Position numbers and translations under genes: made by a program
The notes under the pieces: model-generated
Databases searched by the model: none
The model's input: the letters and a program-made list of their open reading frames with translations, nothing else
What the model was told of the DNA's origin: nothing
Shown here: positions 1 through 15,455 of the stretch, one piece after another
How positions within the stretch are numbered: position 1 is the first letter of the stretch
How the letters are laid out: every line of letters starts with the position of its first letter
From: Thalassotalea nanhaiensis
GTDB taxonomy: Bacteria > Pseudomonadota > Gammaproteobacteria > Enterobacterales > Alteromonadaceae
Direction: 5' to 3'
Length of the DNA: 64,000 nucleotides
Assembly: GCF_031583575.1 (NCBI RefSeq)
Contig: NZ_CP134146.1
Coordinates: 186,001 to 250,000 of the forward strand

Positions 1-1541
1 AGCTATCTCTAAAAAAGTATTACCTAAAAGAGACAGGAATAAGTTTAGTTAAAACCTATGAACAATTTCTAAGGGATCATTTCGAGGATGAGCTCAGAGT
101 ATCAAATCTAGAAGGTCGCCCTCCTTATATTCCAACAATAAAACAGTTCAGATATTGGACAAATAAGCTTTTTTCTAAAGATGAAATTACTTTGAAAAGA
201 ACCTCTGAAAATGACTATTTAAGGAACAAAAGAGGAGTGTTAGGTAGCGTTATAGACAAAAGCTTTTTACCTGGTACCACCTTCGAAATAGACGCAACAG
301 TAGCTGATGTTCATATTGTTTCTGAATTTGGAACTCAATATGTGCTGGGTAGGCCGACAATCTACATGATAGCTGATAGAGCAAGTAGGATGATCGTTGG
401 TATGCATGTATCTCTTTTTCATGCATCTTGGAGAGCTGCCAGACAAGCGATTGCGAATTGTTTTATTGAAAAAACTCAATATTGTCGTGAATTTGGTGTG
501 AACATTTCATCTCCTGACTGGCCATGTTTTCATGTTCCGAGAAATTTGATGTGTGATAACGGCGAAATGATTGGTTTAAAGCCGAAAGATGTAGTAACGC
601 CAATGACTTCTTTGTTGTTTGGTCCGCCCTACCGACCTGAGACTAAAGGTGTTATTGAAAGAAGTTTTAAGATTATTAATGATGATAGCTTGCATGAACT
701 TTTAGGGAATACTCGTTTGGGGACGGTAATCAGAGGTCGAAGAGATCCAAGAAAAGATGCTTGTCACACACTTAAGGAAGTCACAACCATTATCATTAAG
801 TCAGTTCTAGAACATAATAGGAGCATTTTGAAAGAGCTTGGGTATTCGAGCTCGTTATTAGTTGAGAACGATTTAACTCCAACTCCCGCAAATTATTGGA
901 AGATTCATCTAGCTAAACAAAAACAAGATCTTAAATTAGCCAATGAAGATGAAGTCATTGCAGAAATTCTTCCACCAGCCGAAGTTAGTATGACTAGAAA
1001 TGGCATTGAGTTTAATGGTCTGTATTACTCATGCTCTGAAGTACTTGAAAAAAGCTTGGCTTCAATAGCTCGGACTAGTGGAAGGTGGAGGCTCGAAGCC
1101 AGAATAGATGAAAATACCACGAACTATATTTATGTAAAGCTAGAACCGAAAGGTAAGTTTTTACGTTGTGAACTTTTATCTCGTAGCCGGATGTTTGCTA
1201 ATAAGACAATGATTGATGCTGACTTTATGCAAGACTGGGTTGAAATTAAGAAAGAGTTAAACCCCGTTAGCATAGAGTCAATAGATGATATGAAACAGCG
1301 CAAGCAATCGAAGAAGGAGGCAAAAAAACGACTTAAGGCTAGTCCTAAAATACCATTTTCACAAAAACGAAAAAATATTAGGCAAAAAAGAAAAGATGAA
1401 CTTCTTAGTACAACTAATGTGATTACCTCTGATAACAGGTGTGAAGCAAAAGTTATAACACAGCAATCTACTGTTGCTGAGGTAGTAGCGCTGCCAATAG
1501 GTAGGGCTAGGAAAAATAGGAGTAGTAATGAAAACGATTAA
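1..1541 (+). CDS. tnsB: TnsB-like transposase, 5' end outside the window
   Basis: DDE transposase of a Tn7-like element; this subunit binds the transposon ends and joins them to target DNA. The frame is open from base 3, so the gene starts upstream; an internal TTG at 192 is not the real start. About 512 residues are visible, against roughly 700 for Tn7 TnsB. The retroviral-integrase core shows its acidic residues in order: Asp in FEIDATVAD (about 290), Asp in MCDNGEM (about 560) and Glu in KGVIERSFK (about 655). The C-terminal tail is Lys/Arg-rich, as expected of the part that contacts TnsC. It overlaps the next gene by 14 bp. A TnsA endonuclease gene, if present, would lie off the left edge. 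Family sure; exact Tn7-like subgroup not assigned. Confidence 0.88.
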   Translation, partial: LSLKKYYLKETGISLVKTYEQFLRDHFEDELRVSNLEGRPPYIPTIKQFRYWTNKLFSKDEITLKRTSENDYLRNKRGVLGSVIDKSFLPGTTFEIDATVADVHIVSEFGTQYVLGRPTIYMIADRASRMIVGMHVSLFHASWRAARQAIANCFIEKTQYCREFGVNISSPDWPCFHVPRNLMCDNGEMIGLKPKDVVTPMTSLLFGPPYRPETKGVIERSFKIINDDSLHELLGNTRLGTVIRGRRDPRKDACHTLKEVTTIIIKSVLEHNRSILKELGYSSSLLVENDLTPTPANYWKIHLAKQKQDLKLANEDEVIAEILPPAEVSMTRNGIEFNGLYYSCSEVLEKSLASIARTSGRWRLEARIDENTTNYIYVKLEPKGKFLRCELLSRSRMFANKTMIDADFMQDWVEIKKELNPVSIESIDDMKQRKQSKKEAKKRLKASPKIPFSQKRKNIRQKRKDELLSTTNVITSDNRCEAKVITQQSTVAEVVALPIGRARKNRSSNEND

Positions 1542-2946
1542 GGCGATATATAATGAAGCCATTCTACCTGAACATAAAGGTAACCCTTTAATTGAGGCTC
1601 TTCCTCCTAAATTACCTTGGCTAAATGTTATGGAGCTGTTTAGTCATTACCCTGACTATGCCGAAGAAATATCTGACCATCCTGATCCATTGGTTCGAGA
1701 TGAGTATTTGGTAAGGATAGACCGTTTAAGGCAACCTTTAACCGATTATCAGACATGCTTTAGGGCAATAGAAAGAAGTCTCAAAAATGGCTATTCTACA
1801 AAAAATCCATTAACACCTACTACTGCGCAATATTTGCATTATTTTGTCGATGAACAGCCAGAAATTGAGCCAGATTCAGGACGATTTACACCTAAAGGAG
1901 AGGGCCTTACTCTAATTGGAGAGAGTGGAATTGGGAAAACAACAATGCTAGAGCAAGTGTTGAGTTATTTTCCGAATGTCATTGTTCACGACGGCTATAA
2001 AGGTACTAATTTAGACTTTTCTAAACAAGTTGTGTGGGTAAAAGTTGACTGTCCTCAAAATTCTAGCGTAAGAGATCTTTGTGAAGAAATATTGTGGTCA
2101 TTAGATCTATCTCTTGATAGACCAAGAACTAGGCCAGAAAAATTAATTGGTTCGCTAATACGTCAAATTGAGCAGGTAATGAAAGCTAGTTTTTTGGGTA
2201 TGCTTGTCATCGATGAAATGCAAAATTTGACATTCAAGAAAACTAAAGGAGAAGATAATCTGCTCAAATTTTTGCACAGGCTTGTAAATAAACTTGGTAT
2301 CCCAATATTTTTTTGTGCGAATCCACCATTTAACCTCTCTTTAATCAAAGAGCTCAAAAATGCACGTCGTGCAGAAAGTTGCTACCACTATCACATGTCT
2401 CCTCTTTCTATTGATAGTGATTCTTGGAAAGTATTTATTCAACAACTGTGGAATTATCAATGGACAAACGTTTTTACTGAATTAACAGATGAACTGAATA
2501 AAAAGATTTTCGAATTATCTGTAGGAAATATTGACATGGCATGCCGCACGTTTAGGGAAGCTCAGAGATTACTTATTGGCAGTGTTGATGAACGTTTAAC
2601 TAAAGCCTCCCTTGAAGCAGGAAATGCAATCGCTTGTAGCCTGTCTCGACAAACACAACAGGTTATCGACTTAAAAACAGCAATTACTCTTCCTGTTGGC
2701 AAAAAACGAACTCAAAAAGTACAATCTAACAGTAATAGTATGAAAGTTGATAAAACGGGCGATGTTTCTAAACCACAGCACTCTGAATTTGCAGTCCAAA
2801 TTCAAGAGTTGATGGGCCTAGTCGATTTGTCTAACGAAATTGAAGATATGGATTTGATGCAACGCTCTAAAAATTTTGAAAGCCAAATGGAGTATTTAAG
2901 TCATGCGGGCGTCCTTTTGGAAGACCCCCTTTCTGAGTTTGGCTAA
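1528..2946 (+). CDS. tnsC: TnsC-like AAA+ transposition regulator
   Basis: ATP-dependent regulator that links the transposase to the target-selecting TniQ proteins. Walker A is GESGIGKTT (residues 131-139) and Walker B is MLVIDE (225-230), followed by the AAA+ core; this is the TniB/TnsC family arrangement. At 472 aa it is a little shorter than Tn7 TnsC (555 aa). The ATG at 1528 has an AGGAG ribosome site about 7 nt upstream, inside the end of tnsB, so the two are translationally coupled. The polar tail after residue 400 is probably the TniQ/TnsB contact region; that is inference. Confidence 0.88.
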   Translation: MKTIKAIYNEAILPEHKGNPLIEALPPKLPWLNVMELFSHYPDYAEEISDHPDPLVRDEYLVRIDRLRQPLTDYQTCFRAIERSLKNGYSTKNPLTPTTAQYLHYFVDEQPEIEPDSGRFTPKGEGLTLIGESGIGKTTMLEQVLSYFPNVIVHDGYKGTNLDFSKQVVWVKVDCPQNSSVRDLCEEILWSLDLSLDRPRTRPEKLIGSLIRQIEQVMKASFLGMLVIDEMQNLTFKKTKGEDNLLKFLHRLVNKLGIPIFFCANPPFNLSLIKELKNARRAESCYHYHMSPLSIDSDSWKVFIQQLWNYQWTNVFTELTDELNKKIFELSVGNIDMACRTFREAQRLLIGSVDERLTKASLEAGNAIACSLSRQTQQVIDLKTAITLPVGKKRTQKVQSNSNSMKVDKTGDVSKPQHSEFAVQIQELMGLVDLSNEIEDMDLMQRSKNFESQMEYLSHAGVLLEDPLSEFG

Positions 2947-2947
2947 A

Positions 2948-4312
2948 ATGTTAATTACTGAAGCTTTGCCTGGAGAAAGTCTCTATAGCCGTTATATAAG
3001 ACATATGACACTTTGGCATATGCCTGCGAAAGCATTTTTACAGACTTTAGTAGGAAATAACCGCGCTAGTATTCATCCTTATATCACTGTAGGTGCTACA
3101 AATGCGGCTGAGTTTTATAGTCAAAATTATAATAAAATTATTAGTGAGCAAACTCTTGCACCATTGTTTGTTCACTTTTCTCATAAACGTAAAAACAAAA
3201 TTTATAAATATTTGTTATTAAATGATTCAGGTAGGGCAATTCGGAACTGTCAGCTCCCTAATTTTAGAGAATCTGAAAAGCTTTCTCTAAAATACTGTCT
3301 TGTTTGTGTACACAATGATATTAAAAAATATGGTATTTCATATTGGCATATAGCCCATCAAGTACCAGGAATAAATTCATGCTATAAGCATCAAATATCA
3401 TTATTACATCTCTCACTTCCCTGTAGACCACATATTAAAATGGGATTACTGCCGAGTTTAATCGGAGATGCCAAAGCAAGTACAAAAGAAAGTTTTTTAC
3501 TTGCACGTTATGTATATAGTCGTTTACAGAATATTGTTAATATTGGCAGACCATACAATATTAATACGCTGCTAGAGAAGCTTCGTCGTACGGGGTTTAT
3601 AAGAGAAAACAATCGTGTTCTGAGAGCAGAGTTAACATATGAATGTTTTCATCTTAGTCGCAAATTACAACACTCAAGTGTAGGGTTACTCCCAAGGTCA
3701 GATACTGACTTTAACTACTTCTCATATTTGTTATGCAATCAACATCCACAACACCCATTTAAATACTTGTTTCTTGAGTTTTGGTTAACTTTTTTCTGCA
3801 AAACCAAAGTTAAACCTGTACTAGAAGTTACAGCAGTTGATAATACAAAACAGCAAACGATTTTAAAAAACAAGTACTTAGATTTACTTCGAGGAGGCTT
3901 ATCATTAGCAAAAATCAGCCAAAAAACAGGAAAAAGTAGATGTTATTTAAAACTCTTAGCATTGAAGAATAAGATTTCAATCAATATGAAGCCTAGATTG
4001 ATAACTACAGAGGTCGTGAAGGGGGTTCTGAAGATGGCCTATAAAGGTTTTCACCGGAAAGCTATAGCTAAACATTTTAAGATATCAACCGGTAGCATAT
4101 CCCAAATAATATCTGCTGAATCTGGATTAGTGCAAAGGAGAAGGCGGGCTAAATTTGAATCTCGAAGGCGAAAGTATAAAGCTCAAGTTTTAAAGTGGAT
4201 AGCATTAGAACCTTCTGATAGTAAAAAGTATATAAGAAAATATCTACCTTATGCTTATTCGTGGCTGTATCGTCATGAAAGGAAATGGTTGTACCAACAA
4301 CTTAACTTTTAA
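2948..4312 (+). CDS. tniQ: TniQ/TnsD-family target-site selector (first copy)
   Basis: Target-selection protein of a Tn7-like element. I place the start at ATG 2948, directly after the tnsC stop, because the protein then begins with the typical TniQ start (M-LITEALPGESLYSRYIR). An upstream in-frame ATG at 2903 would add 15 residues not typical of the family. A zinc-ribbon-like pattern C-x2-C ... YWHIAHQ ... C-x2-H (CLVC to SCYKH) occurs around residues 115-150. A C-terminal half with helix-turn-helix-like stretches (HRKAIAKHFKISTGSISQI) and a very basic tail fits a sequence-specific DNA binder such as TnsD. Length 454 aa against 508 for Tn7 TnsD. The attachment site it recognises is not visible. 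Confidence 0.82.
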   Translation: MLITEALPGESLYSRYIRHMTLWHMPAKAFLQTLVGNNRASIHPYITVGATNAAEFYSQNYNKIISEQTLAPLFVHFSHKRKNKIYKYLLLNDSGRAIRNCQLPNFRESEKLSLKYCLVCVHNDIKKYGISYWHIAHQVPGINSCYKHQISLLHLSLPCRPHIKMGLLPSLIGDAKASTKESFLLARYVYSRLQNIVNIGRPYNINTLLEKLRRTGFIRENNRVLRAELTYECFHLSRKLQHSSVGLLPRSDTDFNYFSYLLCNQHPQHPFKYLFLEFWLTFFCKTKVKPVLEVTAVDNTKQQTILKNKYLDLLRGGLSLAKISQKTGKSRCYLKLLALKNKISINMKPRLITTEVVKGVLKMAYKGFHRKAIAKHFKISTGSISQIISAESGLVQRRRRAKFESRRRKYKAQVLKWIALEPSDSKKYIRKYLPYAYSWLYRHERKWLYQQLNF

Positions 4313-4388
4313 CAGTTATTCTAGATTTCATATGTAATTTTAAATTTAATTTTATACTTGGACTCTTAACGAGCTGGATGATTCAGAA

Positions 4389-5510
4389 TTGCTAAAAATA
4401 CAAAAAGATGAATTAATACACAGTTTCATTTATCGAACCCAGAAAATAAATGGCATATTACAGTATCACAATATACTTACAGCAGTTGGGATGTGGCATG
4501 ATAAAATAGGTATTCTACCTGAAACTTTGAAAGTATACGGTACAATTGATGAGCCATCTATATTGAACAGTCTTCGTATAATTGGGATGGCAAATACACC
4601 TAAAAGATTGTTTGAATATCCATTTGGTTTTGCAAATGACTTACGCAACTTTTTATTTGGAAGGTCAATTAGAATGAAGAACTCTGCTGCTCACGGAATT
4701 CGAGTGACTTTTTGCCCTTGCTGTATAGAAAAAAATATTAAGAAGCTAGGCTTTGCATATTTCAAAATACACTGGTTTAACAATACTTATTGTACAGTGC
4801 ACCATTCCCCATTGTATGAACTAAAAACAAGCTTTTATTCTAGAGCTAAAGCAATTAAAGCCATCGACATAATATTGCGCGGTAAAATTCCACAGGATGC
4901 AAGCATTATTACTCAGCATAATGATTTGAAGGTAATACAACAGAATAATGTAAACAATCATTTCGCTGGATGCTTTACTAGAGAGTTAAATAAGAAGTTT
5001 CCATGGCCGGTTAATTTTGATGATAATTCTTGGGATATGTCATCGGATGAAATAGCTGAGATTCAAGATAACTTTGAATATTTACACAAACGCTACCCCT
5101 ATACTCTTGAAAGGATTTTTAAAAATAAAGCTAAAGTTATTGATGTATTGCTAGGGGTATTTAATAGAAATGCTATTAGTGGTAAGGTTATAAAACTTAG
5201 AAGCTCAAGCTGTCAAATTTGCACTAACTATAATTGTATTCTTAATCTGACGATTAAACGTCCAACCCCGTCTTCTCAGCTTGCAGACTTATGTACACAA
5301 AACCAGTTTGCTCTATTAGACTCACTCGGAGCCTCACCCAGATATAGAAATAAAAATCTAGAGGAAAAGGCTGCTCATATGTCGCTCGAAGATAAAATTA
5401 AAGTTGTAGGTACAAAAGGAGAAGAAAGGTTACAGCTTGAGAAAAAATGGTCAATCGAACTTGAAGAGAAATTTCTTTTTAGGGGATGGTTTGATGAGTC
5501 TCTAATGTAG
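4389..5510 (+). CDS. Second TniQ-family protein
   Basis: A second, different TniQ-like protein of 373 aa. It has the same zinc pattern as its neighbour (FCPCCIEKN ... FKIHWFNNTYCTVHH, about residues 108-141), with C-x2-C and C-x3-H spacing and the GFAYFKIHW core. It starts at TTG 4389; the frame has stops just upstream (4341, 4347) and no ATG near the family N-terminus, so a TTG start is the best choice. It lacks the basic C-terminal domain of the first copy. Two TniQ proteins in one Tn7-like operon usually mean two targeting routes; no cas genes are nearby, so a CRISPR-guided role has no support here. Confidence 0.75.
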   Translation: MLKIQKDELIHSFIYRTQKINGILQYHNILTAVGMWHDKIGILPETLKVYGTIDEPSILNSLRIIGMANTPKRLFEYPFGFANDLRNFLFGRSIRMKNSAAHGIRVTFCPCCIEKNIKKLGFAYFKIHWFNNTYCTVHHSPLYELKTSFYSRAKAIKAIDIILRGKIPQDASIITQHNDLKVIQQNNVNNHFAGCFTRELNKKFPWPVNFDDNSWDMSSDEIAEIQDNFEYLHKRYPYTLERIFKNKAKVIDVLLGVFNRNAISGKVIKLRSSSCQICTNYNCILNLTIKRPTPSSQLADLCTQNQFALLDSLGASPRYRNKNLEEKAAHMSLEDKIKVVGTKGEERLQLEKKWSIELEEKFLFRGWFDESLM

Positions 5511-6455
5511 TTATTTGATAAATAAGGTATTGATAGTTGTTGTTTGTAAGGGGGTAAACATTATCGAATTTCAAGTTCTATAGATTCTTTATACAATTCG
5601 TTGGAGATTGCCCCAATAGTCAGGGGCATTTCTGAATTCCAATCGACATCAGCCTCTCGCCGTACATTAAGTTTGCCTTATCAATTAGAAGTTGCGAGCT
5701 TTTTTACTCTACTTAAAGCTACGAAATTCACGACTTAGAAGATCGAAAGCGCGAACGTAATAAAAGCTCCCTGTATAAATAATCGCGAGAAGGATTATTG
5801 AACGAATTTTATGCACAGATGTACGTGATACGTAGCTTATATCTCTTTGGCGATTTTAGTAGATTCCTTGCAAAGCTGCATGAACATTACCTAACTTAGG
5901 TTCAATAGTTTGCAGTGTATAAGTAAAGCTCGCGGCTGAAAATCGTGGTTCACAAACAATGGTTTGACTCCCATGAGTCAGTAAATGATTTCCCTTGAAG
6001 TTAATTGTGGCTAACCAGGTGTGACTTGTTATATTACTTGGTTATAAATGAGCTGGTTGTAATATTCTAAAATCGGCATGCTCCAAGAAGGAGCTTACAA
6101 TCAAAAGAAATTTTACTAATGACATTCTTACATACATTATCATCCCGATTAAATCTGCTATGGTATTCGGCCTTTAACATATTTAAAAAATAGGCTTCCA
6201 TCTATAGCAAATTACAACACCAACAATGTAGCCCTGATAAAAATGACATCTACTTGACATTTAATTGACATTAATTGTTCGATAATCAATTGATTTTCAT
6301 AACAATTTACAAGTACCCTAAATCAAATGGATTTTGTTCTATATGCATGGTTTGCAATATATCTCTTTTTGATAAAAGTTTGATTGAATACTCTGAATAT
6401 GATCGAAGTTCGCTTCATTTGACTGATTTAAACTCATATTATAAAGGGTATTTAT
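5511..6455. other. Gene-free interval of about 945 bp
   Basis: No convincing gene on either strand. Small structures only: a GCCCC/GGGGC hairpin at about 5610-5628 that may end the tniQ transcript, a TGACT/AGTCA inverted repeat near 5965-5980, a GCTCC-aagaa-GGAGC hairpin near 6080-6095, and a three-fold 11-bp direct repeat at 6244-6276 listed separately. A minus-strand frame of about 35 codons starting GTG near 5821 is hydrophobic, but it has no further support. Confidence 0.6.
6244..6276. repeat. Three tandem 11-bp repeats starting TGACAT
   Basis: TGACAT begins at 6244, 6255 and 6266, an exact 11-bp period with AT-rich spacers (ctact, ttaat, taatt). An 11-bp spacing of direct half-sites is typical of PhoB/OmpR-type regulators, and on the minus strand the units read TGTCA, like a Pho box. 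It lies about 180 bp before the secreted peptidase gene. Transposase-binding sites or a transposon end are alternative readings. Confidence 0.5.
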
Positions 6456-7766
6456 ATGAACATCACGGCATCGTCGTCTATCACTTACGATAGTCGAACA
6501 TTGAGCTTTTACTCCCTCACCAGACAACTGTTTAAATACATTAATTCGTTTTATTTCATGGCTTTTTATTTTCTTTTGCTCTGCGCTACTTTTGCTGTAG
6601 AGGCGAGTAATAATAAGCTCAATGGCCTAAACCATAATCGTGTATTAGATGAATATATTGTCACATTTAACATCACAGATACCCAAGATATTAAAAGGTT
6701 AATAAAGAAATTCGGCGGTACATATAAAAAACAATTTCAATCTACGTCTGGTATTTATGTGCAAATTCCAGAGTCTAGCCTTGAAGACTTTAGCAAACAC
6801 GAAAGTGTAGAGCTAGTTGAGGCAAACCTAATAGTTGAAAAAGCAAGTTATGACTGGGGACTAGATCGATTAAATCAATCCACACCTGTTTTGGATGGCA
6901 ATGTGTCGACTACACTATCAGGCGATAACATTAGTGTTTATATGCTTGATACTGGTATTAACTTTGCTCATGAAGCGTTCAATGGTAATGCTACCCCCTT
7001 TTGGGATTATACCGGAGGCTCGGGCAGTGACTGTAATGGGCATGGCACTCATACAGCAGGAACTGTAAATAATGTAGTACCACTAAGTCAGCTATATTCT
7101 GTGAAAGTACTTGATTGTTCAGGTAATGCGCCATTGTCGACCGTTCTTTCAGGAATTGATGCAGTGCTATATACAGCGCCACCAGCTCAAATTACAGATG
7201 TTGTTTTTTTAGGGTTTATTAGTGCTAACAGTTCTTCCCTTGATAATGCGGTAACTAACTTAATTAGTGCCGGTTATGAAGTCGTCACAATGGCGGGGAA
7301 TTCTAATAATGATGCTTGTAACTTTTCACCAGCACACCTTTCCTATGTACGTACCATTGGCTCTTTAGGGAAAAATGATGTGCCTTCTGCATTTACAAAT
7401 TATGGCTCTTGCATTGATATGTCAGCCCCTGGTGAGGATATCTTATCAGCTGCTTATTTCGATAACAGTTTAGAAATCACAATGTCGGGCAGTTCAATGG
7501 CTGCAGCCTATATTACCGGAGTGCTCGCAGGCTATTTATCTCAAGGAATGACATGGGATAACTTGATGATGGATTCAATGGAGTTTCCATCATGCATGGG
7601 AGGGCCATGTAGAATCGTAGTGCTACAACAAAACAGCACACTACAGACTATTGATTATCAATATGATGCCAAAGGGCGCTTAAAGAATATTAAAAATAAT
7701 GAGAATAAAGATGTGACCTACAGTTATGACGATGCAGGTAATCGCACACAAGTTAAGGAGAACTAG
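6456..7766 (+). CDS. Secreted subtilisin-like (S8) protease with C-terminal YD repeats
   Basis: Subtilase of 436 aa. An N-terminal leader with a hydrophobic segment at residues 31-50 suggests export, with cleavage near AVEA-SNN. Residues about 62-128 resemble an inhibitor I9 propeptide. The catalytic triad is visible: Asp165 (YMLDTGIN), His196 (NGHGTHTAG) and Ser347 (SGSSMAA), with the oxyanion Asn282 (AGNSN). After the protease domain, residues 400-434 hold two RHS/YD repeats (YDAKGRLKNI and YDDAGNRTQV), which is unusual for a subtilase. ATG 6456 has an AAAGGG site at proper distance; ATG 6558, just before the hydrophobic segment, has none. Only 2 bp separate it from the RHS gene, so the two form an operon. 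A role in processing the RHS product is inference. Confidence 0.82.
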   Translation: MNITASSSITYDSRTLSFYSLTRQLFKYINSFYFMAFYFLLLCATFAVEASNNKLNGLNHNRVLDEYIVTFNITDTQDIKRLIKKFGGTYKKQFQSTSGIYVQIPESSLEDFSKHESVELVEANLIVEKASYDWGLDRLNQSTPVLDGNVSTTLSGDNISVYMLDTGINFAHEAFNGNATPFWDYTGGSGSDCNGHGTHTAGTVNNVVPLSQLYSVKVLDCSGNAPLSTVLSGIDAVLYTAPPAQITDVVFLGFISANSSSLDNAVTNLISAGYEVVTMAGNSNNDACNFSPAHLSYVRTIGSLGKNDVPSAFTNYGSCIDMSAPGEDILSAAYFDNSLEITMSGSSMAAAYITGVLAGYLSQGMTWDNLMMDSMEFPSCMGGPCRIVVLQQNSTLQTIDYQYDAKGRLKNIKNNENKDVTYSYDDAGNRTQVKEN

Positions 7767-7768
7767 GC

Positions 7769-10700
7769 ATGAAACAGTTAATTAACGCTTCTTGGCTACT
7801 ATTAGTCAGCGCTCTCACGGGCCAAACCTTTGCAGAAGAAGATAACGAGTATATTAAACCGCTAGAAATCGTGACTGATATTAACGGGGTCGATTTAAAC
7901 TCGGGCAAATATTACCCTCAATTTCCGGCTCTAAGTATCCCGGCTGCGCCTCGCTTATCGTTTCATACCATTCAAAAGTTTGAATCACGAGTTGATGGTA
8001 CATGGTCGGCCGGAGGGAATACCCGCATAGAATCGCATTCGGTTACGTTTGGTGGTAGTACCTCAGAGTTTTTTGAATGTATTGATGACGATTGTATTCC
8101 TGAACGAAACACAGGGTCTACCCTATTCGGTAATATGTCTGGTCCTTTCTTTCTATATACGCAAGGAAGTACAGGCGTAAAGGTAAAGTACAATGTAAAA
8201 GCCGGTATTTACCCGACTAATGGGGTTCACTACCCTAATGGCACATTTTACGCGAGTGAAATTACTTACCCGGACGGGGAAGTAATTTCCATAGATTATA
8301 CTCAAAACCCATCTAATTATGACCAACGACCGAATAAAGCAACGAGTAGCTTAGGCTATGAAATGGCGTTTACCTATCAATCGAATAGTAACGGCTCTCT
8401 TTGGGCGGTAATAAAGCGTGTAACTATTGCTAAGACAAGTGCACCGAGCGTTATTTTAGCGGAAAATAACTATTCTAGCTCTAATGGTACGGTAACAGAT
8501 GCTTTAGGAAGAACGTGGGATTATACCGGCTTTACGAATAGCTTATACCTACCAGAGCACGCGACTAATTTTAGTTATAAATTACCGTCTAATAGCGCTA
8601 ATAACATTTCTGTAAGCTCTGCATATTTACCTTATGATGATGAGACACACGCTAATTTTGTGACAAGCGTTACTCGTAATGGTGAAACGTATAATTACAG
8701 CTATACACCAACAAGCGGTATCCAATACGACCCGAAAAAACAATTTACTCAAATCGATATTACCGGGCCAGATAATTATCAGCGCACAATTAAATTAAAT
8801 GCGTCGAGTGGTAAAAGCAAAAGCGTACAAGTTGCCAGTGATACGGGCAGCTTAGGTAATGAAACGCTTTACGAATATAACCTTAATAAGCAGCTAGAGA
8901 AAATCACGTACCCAGAAGGTAATAGCGTCAATATTTATTATGATGGTAACGGTAATATCACCTCGAAACACGTTCATGCTAAACCGGGCTCTGGTCTTGC
9001 CTCTATCGTTACTACTGCTAATTATGATTTAAGTCTACCGGGTTTAAACGCCTTTAGACCGACCTATACGGTAGATGCAAATAACAACCGTACTGATTAT
9101 ACCTTTGATTCACTTCACGGCGGTATGCTCACCAAGCTAGAGCCAGCAGGTCAAAATGGCATGCGTAGATTAACAACCAATACTTATACCTCAATAGGTG
9201 GTTATGACCGGTTAACCAAAACCTCAATATGCAGTGGCTCAGAGTGTGGGACTAGCAAAGAGTTTATTACCGAATATACGTACTGGAATAATACTCACAT
9301 AGTCGAAACCGTTACCGAGCGAAACTACGGTAATACTCTGAATAAAACAACTACGTATACTTATGATGGTGCCGGAAATAAATTAAGTGAAGACGGTCCG
9401 TTATCCGGGTTAGATGATGCGACGTATTATCGCTATGATACTACGGGCAGAATGACTTGGGAAATATCACCGGTTAATCAACAAGGCGTTAGGGTCGCGA
9501 GTAAAACAACGTATCGAGACCAAGATAATCAACCGCTTAAGGTTGAGCAAGGGACACTTTCATCAAGTACAGACACGACCTTAGACGTTAATTTAACGAC
9601 AAATTACACCTATGACAGTAACGATATGCCGGTTAAAACAACGGTAAACTCTGATGCTGCTACGGAGTCTGTCACGCAAACCTCGTATACGCCTCGTAAC
9701 TTAGTCGATTGTCAGGTTATACGTATGAATCCGGCTATATTTGCCAGTTTACCAGGTTCAGCGTGTAGTTTAGGTACTGCCGGGACTTTTGGTAGTGACC
9801 GTATTACTAAAAATACTTATGATAACAATGGCCGAGTGACTAAAACTATTTCTGGGTATAATACGATTGATGAAGCAATTGATATTGAAATCGCCTATAC
9901 CGGCAATGGTCAAGCCGACTATAAAAAAGACGGTAACGGCAATTTAACGAATTATACCTATGATGGAGTTGATAGGTTAAGTCGTACAACCTTCCCGGAT
10001 AACACGTATGAGCTAAATACGTATGATACCAATGGAAATGTGGAAACCTTGCGTAAACGTGACGGAGTCGTCCTTACGCATACCTATGATGCGTTAAACT
10101 TAAAAACTCAAACGACAATCCCGAATGAATCTGCGCTTGTCTTTACCTATGATAATTTTGATAGACCTAAAACGTCTACTCGCGACTCTAGCGTTGTAAG
10201 TAATACCTATGATGATTTAGGGCGTTTGTTAACGTCTACCACCAATAATAAAACCCTAAGCTATTTATATGATGTTGCAGGTAGACGTATACGCCTAACG
10301 CATCCGGACGGATTCTACATAATCTATGATTATGACAGTTCAGGCGCATTAACCGCGATTAAAGAAAGTGGTACTAAAGAACTTGTAGGATATGATTATA
10401 ACGAGCTTGGTCAATTGGTGAGTATGACCCGTAACAATGGGGTTGTATCAACACTTGACCATGATGAATTAGGGCGTTTAACAGACTTTGCTCATGGGTC
10501 GATTAACGCGTCAAGTTTTAACTACAATCCGGCGAGTCAGATAACCTATCGAACTGCGAGTAATGCGAGTTTTCAAATATCTATCCCGAGTGTAGGAGAG
10601 CAAGCCTATACCCCGAATAACCTTAATCAATACACTAACGTTGCTGGTAATAGCCTAAGTTATGATTTGACCGGTAATTTGATTAATTACGATGGGTGGA

Positions 10701-11725
10701 CGTATGACTATAACGCGCATAATCGATTAATATCAGCCGATAAGACGGGAACGGATTTAGATTTAACTTACGACCCTACGGGACGCTTAGAGAGTTTTAC
10801 GTTAAACACTGTTAAAACCAATTTTTTATATGATGGTGACGAGCTTGTCGCGGAATATAACAGTAGCGGTACGTTAATCAATCGCTATGTTCATGGCGTA
10901 GGCGTAGACGACCCACTAGTGTGGTACATTGGCTCAGGCACAAGCGAAACCCGTTATTTACTCGCAAATGCACAAGGCTCAATCATAGCAGAAACCGATA
11001 GCAGTGGCAGTGTCGCAAACATTCATGGCTACAGCGCGTTCGGCGAGCCGGATAATGTCAGTGATGCGCGTTTTAGGTATACTGGTCAAATATTGTTGCC
11101 TGGTACAGAGCTTTATTACTACAAAGCACGGATTTATCATCCAAAACTAGGTCGGTTTATGCAAACAGACCCGATTGGTTACGATGATGGGATGAATTGG
11201 TATGCTTATGTTGGGAATGATCCGGTTAATAATGCTGACCCAACAGGGAAGTTTCTGATAGGTGCTGGAGTAGGATTTGCACTAGATTTGACTGTACAAT
11301 TGATAGCTAATGGTGGAGACATAACCAAAGTCGATCCAGTTCAGCTAGCGGGCGCGACTGCAATGGGAGCAATAGGTGCCGGTATTGGTGCTCAGATCGC
11401 AAAGGCATCTAATGCAATTTCAGCAGCAACAAATAGTACTAAATTAGGTAGTGCAGTGAATGTAACCGCAAATACCGTAGCAGGAGTTACAACGGAGGGA
11501 GCCGCATCGGCTGTTAAAATTACGGTTGATGCAGTTGCAGGGACTAATTACGGTGAAGGTACTTCAGATAAAGTTGTAGGCTCTATCGGTGGTAGTGCTC
11601 AGAACGCTGCTGTGAATGAAGTAGTAAGTCATGCTACAGGTCAATCAAAATTAGGACAAGTAGCTGAAATAGGTGTTAAAGCTGTTGCAGCTATTACAGG
11701 CGCTTTAAAAGATGAAAAAAAGTAA
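7769..11725 (+). CDS. Secreted RHS/YD-repeat protein with variable C-terminal tip
   Basis: RHS-family protein of 1318 aa, starting with a Sec-type signal peptide (cleavage near TFA-EED). It has an AAGGAG ribosome site in the end of the protease gene. YD repeats (xxYDxxGRL type) run from about residue 380 to 1060. The RHS-associated core ends with the usual signature: RYTGQ, YYYKARIYHPKLGRFMQTDP, NWYAYVGNDP and a final DPTG at about residue 1160. The last 157 residues are Gly/Ala-rich with hydrophobic stretches and match no toxin fold that I recognise. In this family the shell encloses a C-terminal toxin, and a small downstream gene gives immunity. The signal peptide, and the lack of a PAAR or VgrG-type N-terminus, argue against type VI delivery. 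Family sure; toxin activity inferred. Confidence 0.85.
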   Translation: MKQLINASWLLLVSALTGQTFAEEDNEYIKPLEIVTDINGVDLNSGKYYPQFPALSIPAAPRLSFHTIQKFESRVDGTWSAGGNTRIESHSVTFGGSTSEFFECIDDDCIPERNTGSTLFGNMSGPFFLYTQGSTGVKVKYNVKAGIYPTNGVHYPNGTFYASEITYPDGEVISIDYTQNPSNYDQRPNKATSSLGYEMAFTYQSNSNGSLWAVIKRVTIAKTSAPSVILAENNYSSSNGTVTDALGRTWDYTGFTNSLYLPEHATNFSYKLPSNSANNISVSSAYLPYDDETHANFVTSVTRNGETYNYSYTPTSGIQYDPKKQFTQIDITGPDNYQRTIKLNASSGKSKSVQVASDTGSLGNETLYEYNLNKQLEKITYPEGNSVNIYYDGNGNITSKHVHAKPGSGLASIVTTANYDLSLPGLNAFRPTYTVDANNNRTDYTFDSLHGGMLTKLEPAGQNGMRRLTTNTYTSIGGYDRLTKTSICSGSECGTSKEFITEYTYWNNTHIVETVTERNYGNTLNKTTTYTYDGAGNKLSEDGPLSGLDDATYYRYDTTGRMTWEISPVNQQGVRVASKTTYRDQDNQPLKVEQGTLSSSTDTTLDVNLTTNYTYDSNDMPVKTTVNSDAATESVTQTSYTPRNLVDCQVIRMNPAIFASLPGSACSLGTAGTFGSDRITKNTYDNNGRVTKTISGYNTIDEAIDIEIAYTGNGQADYKKDGNGNLTNYTYDGVDRLSRTTFPDNTYELNTYDTNGNVETLRKRDGVVLTHTYDALNLKTQTTIPNESALVFTYDNFDRPKTSTRDSSVVSNTYDDLGRLLTSTTNNKTLSYLYDVAGRRIRLTHPDGFYIIYDYDSSGALTAIKESGTKELVGYDYNELGQLVSMTRNNGVVSTLDHDELGRLTDFAHGSINASSFNYNPASQITYRTASNASFQISIPSVGEQAYTPNNLNQYTNVAGNSLSYDLTGNLINYDGWTYDYNAHNRLISADKTGTDLDLTYDPTGRLESFTLNTVKTNFLYDGDELVAEYNSSGTLINRYVHGVGVDDPLVWYIGSGTSETRYLLANAQGSIIAETDSSGSVANIHGYSAFGEPDNVSDARFRYTGQILLPGTELYYYKARIYHPKLGRFMQTDPIGYDDGMNWYAYVGNDPVNNADPTGKFLIGAGVGFALDLTVQLIANGGDITKVDPVQLAGATAMGAIGAGIGAQIAKASNAISAATNSTKLGSAVNVTANTVAGVTTEGAASAVKITVDAVAGTNYGEGTSDKVVGSIGGSAQNAAVNEVVSHATGQSKLGQVAEIGVKAVAAITGALKDEKK

Positions 11726-12017
11726 AATTAATTTAAAACTAATCTTAAGAAGATATTCATACTTCTCGACTTTTGTGCTGGTGGTGGCAATTGGCTCGTT
11801 TATATCTCATTTCACGCTAGAAGACTTTTCTTGGAAAGTCTTCATAATTAGTATCTCAGCTGTTATTGGTTGTGCTAGTGTCACCCTATTGCCAGTTGAT
11901 ATAATAAAAGCTAGAAAAGATCGAAGGATGTGTGAAAGGGTAAATCTTGATTTTGATAAATTTAGTATGATGAAAGAAGTGGATAAAGAAAGTATTAGGA
12001 AAGAATATTGTGAATAA
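11712..12017 (+). CDS. Small membrane protein, candidate immunity protein for the RHS tip
   Basis: 101 aa, overlapping the end of the RHS gene by 14 bp, the classic position for an immunity gene. A basic N-terminus is followed by two hydrophobic segments (about residues 17-35 and 42-60), then a charged cytoplasmic tail rich in Lys, Arg and Glu. No family recognised. A membrane-bound immunity protein would fit a hydrophobic, possibly membrane-acting toxin tip. Function inferred from position only. Confidence 0.6.
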   Translation: MKKSKINLKLILRRYSYFSTFVLVVAIGSFISHFTLEDFSWKVFIISISAVIGCASVTLLPVDIIKARKDRRMCERVNLDFDKFSMMKEVDKESIRKEYCE

Positions 12018-12031
12018 ACATAACTGATTAT

Positions 12032-12064
12032 TTTGAATCCAAAGCTTCGCTAGTCGGGGCTTTT
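12032..12064 (+). terminator. Terminator-like element T1, first copy
   Basis: A hairpin AAAGC...GGGGCTTT followed by T residues ends the RHS-immunity operon. The 33-bp element, beginning TTTTGAATCCAAAGC, recurs at 15683-15715 with two mismatches. Confidence 0.7.
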
Positions 12065-12157
12065 TATTAGCATAAAGAAGATTGATTCAATTGTATTTTT
12101 TAATGAAATAGAGATATATATACTGTCACTAAGAGCTATTAACTAAGTTCATTACAA

Positions 12158-14728
12158 ATGGAGTCGAATTTGAGCGATGTAAACAAAGGAATAATTGATT
12201 GGGTTAATGCCCAGCCGTACTGGGTGCAATTAGCAGTATCAAAGGTCTATGGGCAAACAGAGATTAAAAACGAGCTTATCGATGAACTGCTTGCTCTATT
12301 GAAAACGCCTGAAGGTCAATCAAAAGATACACAAGTCGATTTAACACCATTTTTTAAAAGCGCCTTTGATGATAATGGTGATATTCGTATTCATTCCATT
12401 GGAGAAATTGAAGGTATTGATGCGTTAGCACCTCGAACTCCACTTCCATTTGCACATAATTTATCGGTTATTTACGGTAATAACGGATCTGGTAAATCAG
12501 GGTACGCTCGAATTCTAAAAAAGTTGTGCGGCAAGCCAAATGCGGCAGAACTTCAACCAAACGTATTCAAAGAGTTACCTCAGAATAGACAATGTAAAGT
12601 CGAAGCTTCAATAAATGGTGATGATAAAACCTTCTTATGGCAGGCAAATGAAAATCCCGCTCAAGAACTTACCACAGTTGATGTTTTTGATAGTCAGACG
12701 GGTTTTTTCTATATAGATAAAGAGCAAGAAATTAATTATGTCCCAAACGAAGTGGCACTTTTCGAGCAATTAGTTTCTATTTATCAACAACTGCAACAAA
12801 AGCTTAAGGGAGAGTTAGGGGCTATAGGTTCTGTACTTCCCGCAAAGCCTGCTGATTATGGAGACACGAAATACATTAAGGGAATGTTTGAACGCTTAAA
12901 GCACGATACAGATATAAATACTGTAGAAGAATTCTATAAATTTTCAGTTGAAGATAAGGCCGCTTTGGTACAACTAGGTGAGCGATTATCAGCTTCGCCA
13001 ACTGACTTAGCAGTAAAGAAACAAAAGCGGAAAACTCAACTCGAAAATATACTTAATAATGTGATGAAGGCTGCCAAACATGTCTCTAATATTTCAGTTG
13101 AACGTATTAAACAGTTGGAACTAGACGCTAAGACAAAACGAGAAATAGCTCAGCAAGGTGCTAATGCAATTGTCACAGAAACAAGTTTTGATGGTTTTGG
13201 CACAGAAATATGGAAAGCTATGTGGGAAGCTGCGAGAAATTACTCTAAACGTAGTGCTTACCCTGAAGCTGAATATCCTTATGTAGAACAAGGTTCCAAA
13301 TGTGTTTTATGTGAACAAGAACTTGATGAGTCAGCAAGGAAACGGTTAGAAAAATTTGAAAGCTATGTTGCGGGTGAGCTTGAGTCGTCTGCTACGCTTG
13401 CAGAAACTGCTCTTAAGGATGTTTTGGATAAACTACCAACAAAACCAGAAGAGCAAACTATTGTAATGTCTCTTCAAGCCGCTCAATTGGATGAACGTGA
13501 ATGGCTTCCCATATTTAAAGGTGTTTGGGGGAATATTCAAGATGTCGTTTCCAATGCAAAGGATAAAGAGCGAGAAATACACAAATATTATGATCTTGCC
13601 CCCGACACTTTCAAACCCATTCAATCCATCATTGAGAGTTTAGAGCAAGAGGTAGAACAACATCAAAAAGATGCTGTGGAATTTGATAAAAATAACCTGA
13701 TTAATCACATTAACGAATTGAAGTCTAAAGAATGGGCTAGTAGCTATGTTGATGCTGTTAAAGATGAAATATCAAACCTTAAGGAGAAACAAAAAATTAG
13801 CGAGTGGCTTAAGTCAGTTAATACGGCAGCAGTTTCAAAAGAAGCTGGGCGAGTATCTGAAATCTTAGTAACTGAAGCGTTTGTTGACAGGTTCAACAAT
13901 GAGTTAATTCTCCTAGGTGCGTCAAAAGTAACGGTAGAACTTGTAAAGACTAGGCCAAAGCTTGGACGTGTTTATCATAAAGTTCAACTTCAAGGACTAA
14001 ATCATCAGCATAGTCGAAGTAAAGCAATGAGTGTTTTAAGTGAAGGTGAACAAAGAATAGTATCTTTGGCAGCATTTCTTGCTGATGTTGGAAGTAAACC
14101 TAATTCAGCTCCTTTTATTTTTGATGATCCTATATCGTCATTAGATCAAACCTATGAAGAGCACACTGCAAAGCGATTGGTTTCTTTGAGTGAAAATAGG
14201 CAAGTCATTGTGTTTACTCATAGGCTCAGTTTGCTAGGTCAATTGATTGACAATGGTAATGCTGAATGTCGATATATTAGAAGGGAGCCATGGGGGTGTG
14301 GTGAACATGGTGATATTCCACTTTTCGGTAAAAAGCCTGTTAATGCTGTTAAAGACCTTAAAAATAACAGGCTTAGCGTTGCAAGAAAAATGTATGATTC
14401 GCATGGATTTGATAACTACTATCCCTTGGCAAAAGCAATTTGTAGCGACTTTAGAATTCTTTTAGAAAGAATTGTTGAGACAGAACTTCTGGCTGATGTC
14501 ATCAAGAGACATAGGCGAGATATTCATACTAAAAATAAAATTAATTTACTGGCAAAAATTACGAAAGATGATTGCGAACTTATTGAAAAATTGATGAGTG
14601 ATTTTTCGTGTTTTGAGCATAGTCAATCAGACGAGTCTCCGGTAGAGATACCAGAGCCAGATATATTAGAAAGCTATTTGGATAGTATTATCATCTGGCA
14701 TGAAGCTTTTAAAACGAGAGTGCATTAA
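12158..14728 (+). CDS. RloC-like AAA ATPase with zinc hook
   Basis: 856-aa SMC/Rad50-type ATPase of the AAA_13 kind. Walker A is YGNNGSGKS (residues 106-114). A coiled-coil insertion carries a CxxC zinc hook (C382, C385). The ABC signature is LSEGEQ (628 region) and Walker B is FIFDD (653-657) with the D-loop SSLDQ. The C-terminal part has an R-x3-E (R766, E770) and a later His (about 821), reminiscent of the PrrC/RloC anticodon-nuclease triad but with wider spacing, so nuclease activity is uncertain. Such proteins are typically anti-phage abortive-infection factors. No restriction-modification genes are adjacent. ATG 12158 lacks a ribosome site; TTG 12170 has GGAG 6 nt upstream and may be the true start. 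Confidence 0.7.
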   Translation: MESNLSDVNKGIIDWVNAQPYWVQLAVSKVYGQTEIKNELIDELLALLKTPEGQSKDTQVDLTPFFKSAFDDNGDIRIHSIGEIEGIDALAPRTPLPFAHNLSVIYGNNGSGKSGYARILKKLCGKPNAAELQPNVFKELPQNRQCKVEASINGDDKTFLWQANENPAQELTTVDVFDSQTGFFYIDKEQEINYVPNEVALFEQLVSIYQQLQQKLKGELGAIGSVLPAKPADYGDTKYIKGMFERLKHDTDINTVEEFYKFSVEDKAALVQLGERLSASPTDLAVKKQKRKTQLENILNNVMKAAKHVSNISVERIKQLELDAKTKREIAQQGANAIVTETSFDGFGTEIWKAMWEAARNYSKRSAYPEAEYPYVEQGSKCVLCEQELDESARKRLEKFESYVAGELESSATLAETALKDVLDKLPTKPEEQTIVMSLQAAQLDEREWLPIFKGVWGNIQDVVSNAKDKEREIHKYYDLAPDTFKPIQSIIESLEQEVEQHQKDAVEFDKNNLINHINELKSKEWASSYVDAVKDEISNLKEKQKISEWLKSVNTAAVSKEAGRVSEILVTEAFVDRFNNELILLGASKVTVELVKTRPKLGRVYHKVQLQGLNHQHSRSKAMSVLSEGEQRIVSLAAFLADVGSKPNSAPFIFDDPISSLDQTYEEHTAKRLVSLSENRQVIVFTHRLSLLGQLIDNGNAECRYIRREPWGCGEHGDIPLFGKKPVNAVKDLKNNRLSVARKMYDSHGFDNYYPLAKAICSDFRILLERIVETELLADVIKRHRRDIHTKNKINLLAKITKDDCELIEKLMSDFSCFEHSQSDESPVEIPEPDILESYLDSIIIWHEAFKTRVH

Positions 14729-14760
14729 CCTTAAAATATGGCGCTAACTCCTAAAGTTTT

Positions 14761-14794
14761 CTCTCAATTTCAAAGCCAGCGGAAGCTGGTTTTG
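14761..14794 (+). terminator. Terminator element T2, first copy
   Basis: CCAGC-GGAA-GCTGG stem-loop followed by TTTTG, just after the ATPase gene. The 34-bp element recurs at 15744-15777 with two mismatches, one of which changes a stem C to T but keeps a T-G pair. Confidence 0.7.
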
Positions 14795-14861
14795 TCTTCT
14801 TAAGTAAAAATAAATCTTTTACCCACCATTAAAAGCTAGAACAACTTCGATTTTTTGAAGT

Positions 14862-14890
14862 GGTAAATTTATTTCGCAAAGGTGGTAAAA
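14862..14890. repeat. 29-bp element R, first copy
   Basis: Begins GGTAAATTTATTTCG and ends TGGTAAAA. It matches 15856-15884 at 27 of 29 positions and sits at a similar distance from T2 in both copies (101 and 112 bp). Function unknown. Confidence 0.65.
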
Positions 14891-15063
14891 CTTTTTCGCT
14901 GAGATGGAAAGGTTTTATCGGAAAGCTGGTAAAGTAGGTGCGGAATATACACATATAAGCAATAGTGTCAAAGTTACTTTAGAAATGATATGTTTTTTAG
15001 TGTATGGGTAGCTATTCTCATTTATCTTATTACTTATTTGTGGACAAAATCGGAATTGAATTT

Positions 15064-15270
15064 ATGAAAATATTAACGGATAAGCTTATTGTTGATGCTG
15101 TTAACTGCCTTTGGTGTGTTGATGCATGTCCTCCGACAACTGAGCGTGTAGTAAAAGAAATTCATCATTTTGATTTAAAGCGCGTCAGGGGGGCTTTAGA
15201 AAGGGCGGCTGAAAGAGGAAAACTTATATCATCTAATGGCTATTGGACGCCTACTAGAAAAGGGATTTAG
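15064..15270 (+). CDS. Small winged-helix-like protein
   Basis: 68 aa from ATG 15064, with GGA about 9 nt upstream. An alternative ATG at 15004 would add 20 residues but has no ribosome site. The pattern of two helices, a basic helix (RVRGALERAAERGKL) and a short wing (SSNGYWTPTRKG) resembles small winged-helix DNA-binding proteins. It contains three Cys (CLWC, DAC), possibly metal or redox ligands. No family recognised. Confidence 0.45.
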   Translation: MKILTDKLIVDAVNCLWCVDACPPTTERVVKEIHHFDLKRVRGALERAAERGKLISSNGYWTPTRKGI

Positions 15271-15278
15271 AACAAACC

Positions 15279-15341
15279 TTCTACGGGCAAATTATTTTGT
15301 AACTTTTAACTCTTACGGGCAAACTTTTTTGTCATTTCACA
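15279..15341. repeat. Pair of 23-bp direct repeats, candidate transposase-binding sites
   Basis: TACGGGCAAA occurs at 15282-15291 and 15314-15323, 32 bp apart. Read on the minus strand, two 23-bp units (around ACAAAA..A.TTTGCCCGTA) agree at 18 positions, and the outer one is preceded by TGTGAA. The layout (terminal TGT, then about 22-bp repeated sites) is what a Tn7-like end looks like. The partner end is outside the window, so this stays a candidate. Confidence 0.4.
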
Positions 15342-15455
15342 AGTCTCTGATTTAATAAGACCTGATGATAATCATAGTTATGTTTCTAGTGCTCCTTAAG
15401 TTTGGGTATCTGGCAGAATTGAATCTAAAAATTTAGATAAGTAACAGGAAACAGC

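Follow-up and report, generated by a model that had tools for sequence, protein, structure and literature searches.

In a 64,000-nucleotide stretch of the Thalassotalea nanhaiensis genome (hereafter the window), a secreted subtilisin-like protease of family S8 that ends in a pair of YD repeats (S8-YD) is encoded directly upstream of a secreted RHS protein of the polymorphic-toxin type. Here, I propose that the two form part of a multi-protein secreted RHS toxin system, in which the YD pair would be a docking module for one N-terminal class of RHS proteins; on the sequence comparisons set out below, this reading has a probability of about 0.53. Docking, cleavage and toxicity are all inferred from sequence. 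The evidence that carries the proposal is the recurrence of the YD pair, joined to unrelated domains, in small secreted proteins (companions) encoded upstream of RHS genes of the same class.

Three genes follow one another on the forward strand. S8-YD (6456-7766; 436 amino acids, aa), recognised from its open reading frame (ORF), Pfam and Protein Data Bank homologues, is separated by 2 bp from the RHS gene (7769-11725; 1318 aa), recognised from its ORF, Pfam and TIGR03696. The preliminary description of this DNA had placed a protease ending in YD repeats beside an RHS gene, and these exact ORFs bear it out. A Shine-Dalgarno-like AAGGAG serving the RHS gene (7755-7760) lies within the last codons of the YD pair, which fits translational coupling of the two genes. 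The third ORF (11712-12017) overlaps the end of the RHS gene by 14 bp and encodes a protein of 101 aa in which hydropathy predicts two membrane segments; from its position and these two segments only, it is presumed to be the cognate immunity protein.

The protease belongs to family S8 by its Peptidase_S8 domain (residues 156-363, 6921-7544; Pfam E 5e-18, 65.8 bits), and by its match to aqualysin-1 (4dzt; E 1.6e-51 over residues 133-365) it is of the proteinase K/aqualysin type. Alignment to aqualysin-1 places D165, H196, N282 and Ser347, the latter being the serine of GSSMA; D165, H196 and Ser347 correspond to the catalytic triad and N282 to the oxyanion asparagine. S8-YD thus shares with proteinase K and aqualysin the catalytic residues and the fold region 133-365, and differs from them in an altered strand of the cleft and in its C-terminal YD pair. 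The pair (residues 401-436, 7656-7763) occupies the last 36 residues, its two units being YQYDAKGRL (at 401) followed by YSYDDAGNR (at 422), and by profile and alignment it is homologous to the common part of the companions; since its RHS_repeat match (residues 403-433; E 2.6e-6, 28.1 bits) exceeds the Pfam cut-off of 22 bits, the resemblance is more than chance. BRCT matches in S8-YD fell under the Pfam cut-off and were rejected. Both proteins had been credited with signal peptides. That of the RHS protein is evident by eye, a hydropathy scan (19-residue mean above 1.5) having failed to flag it; the same scan flags residues 32-50 of the protease (6549-6605) as the probable core of a signal peptide, which is likely rather than certain because an unusually long N-region precedes it.

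The RHS protein is assigned by its YD repeats (RHS_repeat, E 1.6e-25) and by an Rhs-associated core (residues 1088-1160, 11030-11248; TIGR03696, 80 bits against a cut-off of 32.5) with the signature DPIG-x19-DPTG, which precedes a variable C-terminus. The latter (11243-11722) is rich in Ala and Gly, matched no family in profile scans and is presumed to be the toxin. The RHS protein as a whole matches solved Rhs structures, best the RhsP-like 8h8b (over residues 722-1169); RhsP is also named in PMC12704120. No PAAR or DUF6531 match was found in the protein by Pfam. About a dozen residues past the presumed signal peptide starts a domain (7871-8770), here defined by an alignment of RHS N-termini (A3), that is a remote relative of DUF6531 (hhalign probability 95.9%, aligned from the first residues of DUF6531); two of 13 RHS members of the class also match DUF6531 in Pfam. 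Nine C-termini were scanned, giving one M23, one PT-HINT, one DUF2380 and six without a match; the M23 peptidase domain belongs to the RHS protein of genome G051, the gene of which is followed by one for a lipoprotein-like product, as judged by eye.

A search with the N-terminus of the window RHS protein in 394 genomes of the order returned three places besides its own, at 49% (G255) and 45% (G051) identity and, weakly, in G038 (E 1.5e-8). In G255 and G051 the gene just upstream of the RHS gene encodes a secreted protein of 158 or 168 aa, the YD pair being its sole recognisable part. On the Asticcacaulis plasmid pASTEX02, likewise, a YD-pair protein is encoded directly upstream of the RHS gene and a second one further off; Sphingomonas aerolata is also among the plasmid RHS relatives, and viral contigs yielded none. 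When a YD-pair profile of five rows was searched in 398 genomes of the phylum, the nine top-ranking places fell in frames 78-620 aa long, the first two being training rows. The companion-RHS arrangement was present in 12 of 20 fetched regions (L087-L096, L098 and L099); the eight left out are L100-L106, which hold pieces of RHS genes, several at contig ends, and L097. In L097 (7668-8567), a 299-aa secreted YD-pair protein has, by eye, several Ig-like stretches in repetition and ends in a membrane segment at its C-terminus; the contig stops 548 bp past this companion-like gene, its neighbour thus being out of view. Counting the window (f1), companions occur in families f6, f7, f39, f41 and f63 as well as in the alphaproteobacterium Asticcacaulis, hence in at least six families.

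The only part common to the companions is the YD pair of about 40 aa, the remainder differing from one to the next, and the minimal ones (about 69-103 aa) consist of a signal peptide and the YD pair only. They are mostly encoded by the gene adjoining the RHS gene on its upstream side, although in a small number of loci the distance grows to as much as about 1 kb. Thirty-three companions, picked by hand and including two with no RHS gene immediately after them (L055b and L089b), align on the motif Y-x-Y-D-A-x-G-R-L ... D-x-A-x-N-R, mostly with the pair right behind the signal peptide. The attached domains above the Pfam cut-off are fn3, Calx-beta, Big_9, Cadherin_4, B_lectin and the GP38 tail-fibre adhesin; none of 15 other companions scanned matched a protease family. 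The likeness to the GP38 phage tail-fibre adhesin was seen in the L055 companion and, under the cut-off, in that of L090, and the L145 companion carries a D-mannose-binding lectin domain. In searches of open-licence full texts, the papers listed mention neither a YD-pair companion nor an S8-YD pair. The YD pair at the end of the protease, being the common part of these companions, suggests a dedicated docking partner.

The A3 profile was built from 13 RHS N-termini, every one of them from a companion-bearing locus, and counts made with it in the same genomes are therefore circular: of its 20 rows in the 398 phylum genomes, the 14 with E up to 5e-10 correspond to 13 genes, all with a companion, and among the six weaker rows L115 has one, the other five being left unjudged since they fall within long frames extending past the locus. 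A fairer test drew on 159 genomes of one family rich in the class, where 26 rows less five from training genomes left 21 in 15 genomes, L141 and L142 not being judgeable for a companion. A companion was present in 15 of the 19 judgeable new RHS genes (L127, L128, L129, L130, L132, L134-L137, L139, L140, L143, L144, L145 and L147), or in 14 by hidden Markov model (HMM) alone; in L127, L128, L129 and L147 the upstream distance is larger, from several hundred up to roughly a thousand bases. The control consisted of 21 DUF6531-type places in 150 genomes, 20 of them judgeable (L182 ends too soon, and the organism's own gene was read in L052), and a small YD protein was found at one of the 20 (L180, with frayed repeats). 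Fisher's p against this control is 2e-6 for 15/19 and 1e-5 for 14/19, values which are optimistic because genomes of one family are not independent.

Several points weigh against this reading. Four of the 19 genes lack a companion (L131, L133, L138 and L146), L138 in spite of an N-terminus resembling that of the window RHS protein. The L129 companion was accepted by eye after the HMM had missed it, that of L132 is frameshifted, and the controls were judged by HMM only, unlike the test set; that one of them nevertheless holds a YD protein also counts. Co-inheritance in an operon alone would yield such a linkage, and the test genomes are of one family. As to the protease, its fusion to a YD pair is a single case, and FLGF stands where the SLGG strand of this enzyme group aligns; its activity is not assured, because of this replacement. 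Finally, AlphaFold models made without an alignment reached a mean pLDDT of 39 for S8-YD and 31 for the RHS shell and were discarded.

Matches to S8-YD at E up to 1e-20 occur in 47 of the 394 order genomes, its own included, and among the matches listed only the organism's own gene passes query residue 382 of 436; in 15 genomes of the genus they reach residue 379 at the furthest. No YD pair was found around 41 S8 loci with flanks of 1.5 kb or wider, a scan that is informative for YD tails only, such flanks being too short to reveal RHS genes, and no frame with at least two YD motifs at 20 other high-scoring S8 loci, for which flanks of about 6 kb were included as far as the contigs reached. 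Plasmid records matching S8 number 206, of which the best 20 were viewed, and a contig scan gave one distant S8 locus (L006).

The nearest S8 relative lies in the same genus (genome G894, locus L196), at 39% identity over residues 24-379 and 41% over the common part. Its gene immediately precedes a secreted RHS gene that is spread over two frames, and a gene for a 92-aa membrane-like protein comes next. This RHS protein is of the DUF6531 type, and the protease has no YD pair, its tail being without a Pfam match and FN3-like by eye. Protease and RHS gene are thus found together twice, and the YD pair only beside the companion-class RHS gene, a contrast that consists of one locus pair. By eye, the G894 locus has IS21-like genes on one side and two integrase-like genes on the other (L196, 183-2469 and 11646-15707), so that it too may be mobile. 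The preliminary description had asked whether S8-YD genes keep company with RHS genes in other genomes: in the genomes searched the fusion does not recur, an S8 gene beside a secreted RHS gene recurs once, and a YD pair beside an RHS gene recurs repeatedly. Its suggestion that the shared repeats let the protease dock onto the RHS shell gains support, for the pair recurs by this RHS class and is missing beside the DUF6531-type RHS gene of G894.

At six loci of the class, the RHS capsule is encoded as two genes (G686 L089, G613 L094, G591 L098, G565 L088, G744 L145 and G757 L141). The split falls at the same place in all six, after a TCYxYD unit followed by an end of the PKG or PRG type, PKA in two of them; the second half-gene overlaps or touches the first and opens with what appears by eye to be a signal peptide, followed by YD repeats. 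A companion is present at all of them except L141, which is cut at its start, and in L089 the first RHS half is spread over two frames. A frameshift reading was rejected for L088, L089, L094 and L098, the second gene carrying its own signal peptide, and the RHS genes of L096 and L196 do look like frameshifts. If the split genes are functional, their products, each secreted, must bring their YD chains together outside the cytoplasm.

In RhsA, the N-terminal closure of the capsule is made of a cork and a seal peptide, the seal being on the self-cleaved N-terminal piece (PMC8765631, in the part available); elsewhere it is an Ig-like plug in Rhs1 and, in Tc toxins, a separate protein (PMC8636562), and an FN-plug is also known (PMC8765631, PMC8636562). 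No seal in cis is apparent in the present class, because the RHS protein begins at the start of DUF6531, soon after the signal peptide. The missing seal would be made good by a separate protein of two repeats whose head is FN3, Ig, lectin or protease. The YD chains would leave the cytoplasm through Sec, and in the periplasm their YD strands would come together to enclose the C-terminal toxin, cut off by the RHS core itself; the S8-YD pair would serve as a trans-acting cap by binding the capsule, the N-terminal end being the likeliest site, and the assembled particle would exit through a type II secretion system (T2SS). At the target surface the attached module would bind, as in the adhesin-like companions, or, in the window system, digest either the cap or protein of that surface, the toxin then passing out.

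The protease had also been thought to release the C-terminal toxin, and this part finds no support: Rhs proteins with a DPxG core autocleave (PMC8765631 and PMC12704120, as far as these were available), the window RHS protein keeps such a DPxG-bounded core, and none of the 15 other companions scanned is protease-like. S8-YD is probably not needed for toxin release. The same evidence bears on the wider possibility that the protease is a processing enzyme, tethered by its YD pair to the capsule, that cuts the RHS protein to mature it or to free the toxin. The related protease of G894, adjoining another secreted RHS gene, speaks for it, as do the Sec- and T2SS-type polymorphic toxins listed with subtilisin processing domains in PMC3482391, where Ntox32 is associated with both Peptidase S8 and RHS, and where Ntox38 has a neighbour resembling the subtilisin mycosin. 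Yet with a core of a kind that cuts itself and with no protease among the 15 companions scanned, processing appears rather unlikely.

Similarly unlikely is that the companion serves as a periplasmic folding or export helper of the RHS chain, all attached domains, including the protease, being passengers. The minimal companions, reduced to signal peptide and YD pair, would suit such a helper, as would the ribosome-binding site of the RHS gene within the coding end of S8-YD, and the activity of Bcn-A, a secreted RHS protein of Xanthomonas, depends on accessory ORFs (PMC7259588). A mere helper, though, would not need the adhesin-like and lectin domains that recur on companions. RHS loci rearrange often, and the YD pair could accordingly be what recombination left of an earlier RHS gene, joined to the protease by accident and without function, to which the single S8-YD case and the frameshifted companion of L132 would be congenial. 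This is quite improbable: the 33 aligned examples keep two units and one motif, mostly right behind the signal peptide, and DUF6531-type RHS genes also rearrange, yet a small upstream YD protein accompanies only one of the 20 controls. A docking module for the RHS class remains the preferred reading.

The system resembles the Rhs effectors of the type VI secretion system (T6SS), such as RhsA, Rhs1, Tse5 and RhsP, in its YD shell, DPxG core, variable C-terminus and downstream immunity-like gene, and differs from them in having a signal peptide in place of PAAR, no visible seal in cis and a YD-pair companion. Along the same line, the T6SS marker TssK/VasE was not found in the whole genome; the absence of type VI parts claimed in the preliminary description thus holds as far as this single marker goes. 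GspD has two above-cut-off matches in the same genome. A second RHS gene of the genome (L052, 4292-9091) was rejected as a partner of the protease, being of the DUF6531 type, about 1 Mb off and without a companion. In the Tc toxins TcB/TcC, too, the YD capsule is made whole by another protein with a gene of its own, and the six split loci of the class match this; both halves carry an apparent signal peptide in the present case, and two further repeats come from a third protein. The Gram-positive WapA is likewise an RHS toxin exported by Sec without a T6SS, whereas its wall-binding part is in cis, and the portion of PMC12704120 at hand describes no YD-pair companion for it. Bcn-A of Xanthomonas perforans is a Gram-negative RHS bacteriocin that likewise has accessory ORFs, together with an immunity protein in the membrane, and is T2SS-dependent, its activity being lost without the type II secretin; the available part of the source (PMC7259588) does not present the accessory ORFs as encoding YD proteins.

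An intact Tn7-like transposon of 16,919 bp (G000:C1:184423-201341) carries the S8-YD/RHS operon as cargo, and the right-hand 15.3 kb of this transposon occupy positions 1-15341 of the window on the forward strand, its left end lying about 1.6 kb outside. The ends are 30-bp inverted sequences matching at 28 of 30 positions (TGT..ACA), the right one at 15312-15341, and are flanked on both sides by the 5-bp duplication AGTCT, at 15342-15346 on the right. By Pfam, the transposon encodes a TnsA N-domain, TniB, a TnsD/TniQ above the cut-off (2903-4312) and a TniQ below it (4389-5510); TnsB, without a Pfam match in the stretch scanned, was assigned by position. The element sits behind a TIGR00275 (YhiN-like) gene (448.9 bits), and yhiN is the att site of Tn6230 (PMC11406308, in the part available). 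It shares with Tn6230-type elements TnsA, a TniB-like TnsC, TniQ/TnsD, insertion beside yhiN and a 5-bp duplication, a likeness of genes and site, and differs from them in its cargo, namely the secreted RHS operon and PDC-S06. The latter, a PADLOC candidate anti-phage family, is represented by an AAA_13 ATPase (12158-14728, forward strand; E 8e-283) outside the RHS operon. Near the right end of the transposon (15064-15270) lies a small ORF of about 68 aa without a Pfam match.

To my knowledge, little has been settled about how RHS toxins that have no type VI apparatus are closed, leave the cell and find their target. It is tentatively put forward, at somewhat less than even odds, that Gram-negative bacteria possess a Sec-secreted class of RHS toxins whose capsule is assembled, closed and aimed in trans, by one or two chains and a YD clip with an interchangeable head (lectin, cadherin, FN3, tail-fibre-like or protease), the head being an enzyme in the window. 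If true, such a common clip with interchangeable heads would offer a handle on the closure, export and aiming of these toxins, and it would explain the small 'RHS repeat' proteins that resemble gene fragments.

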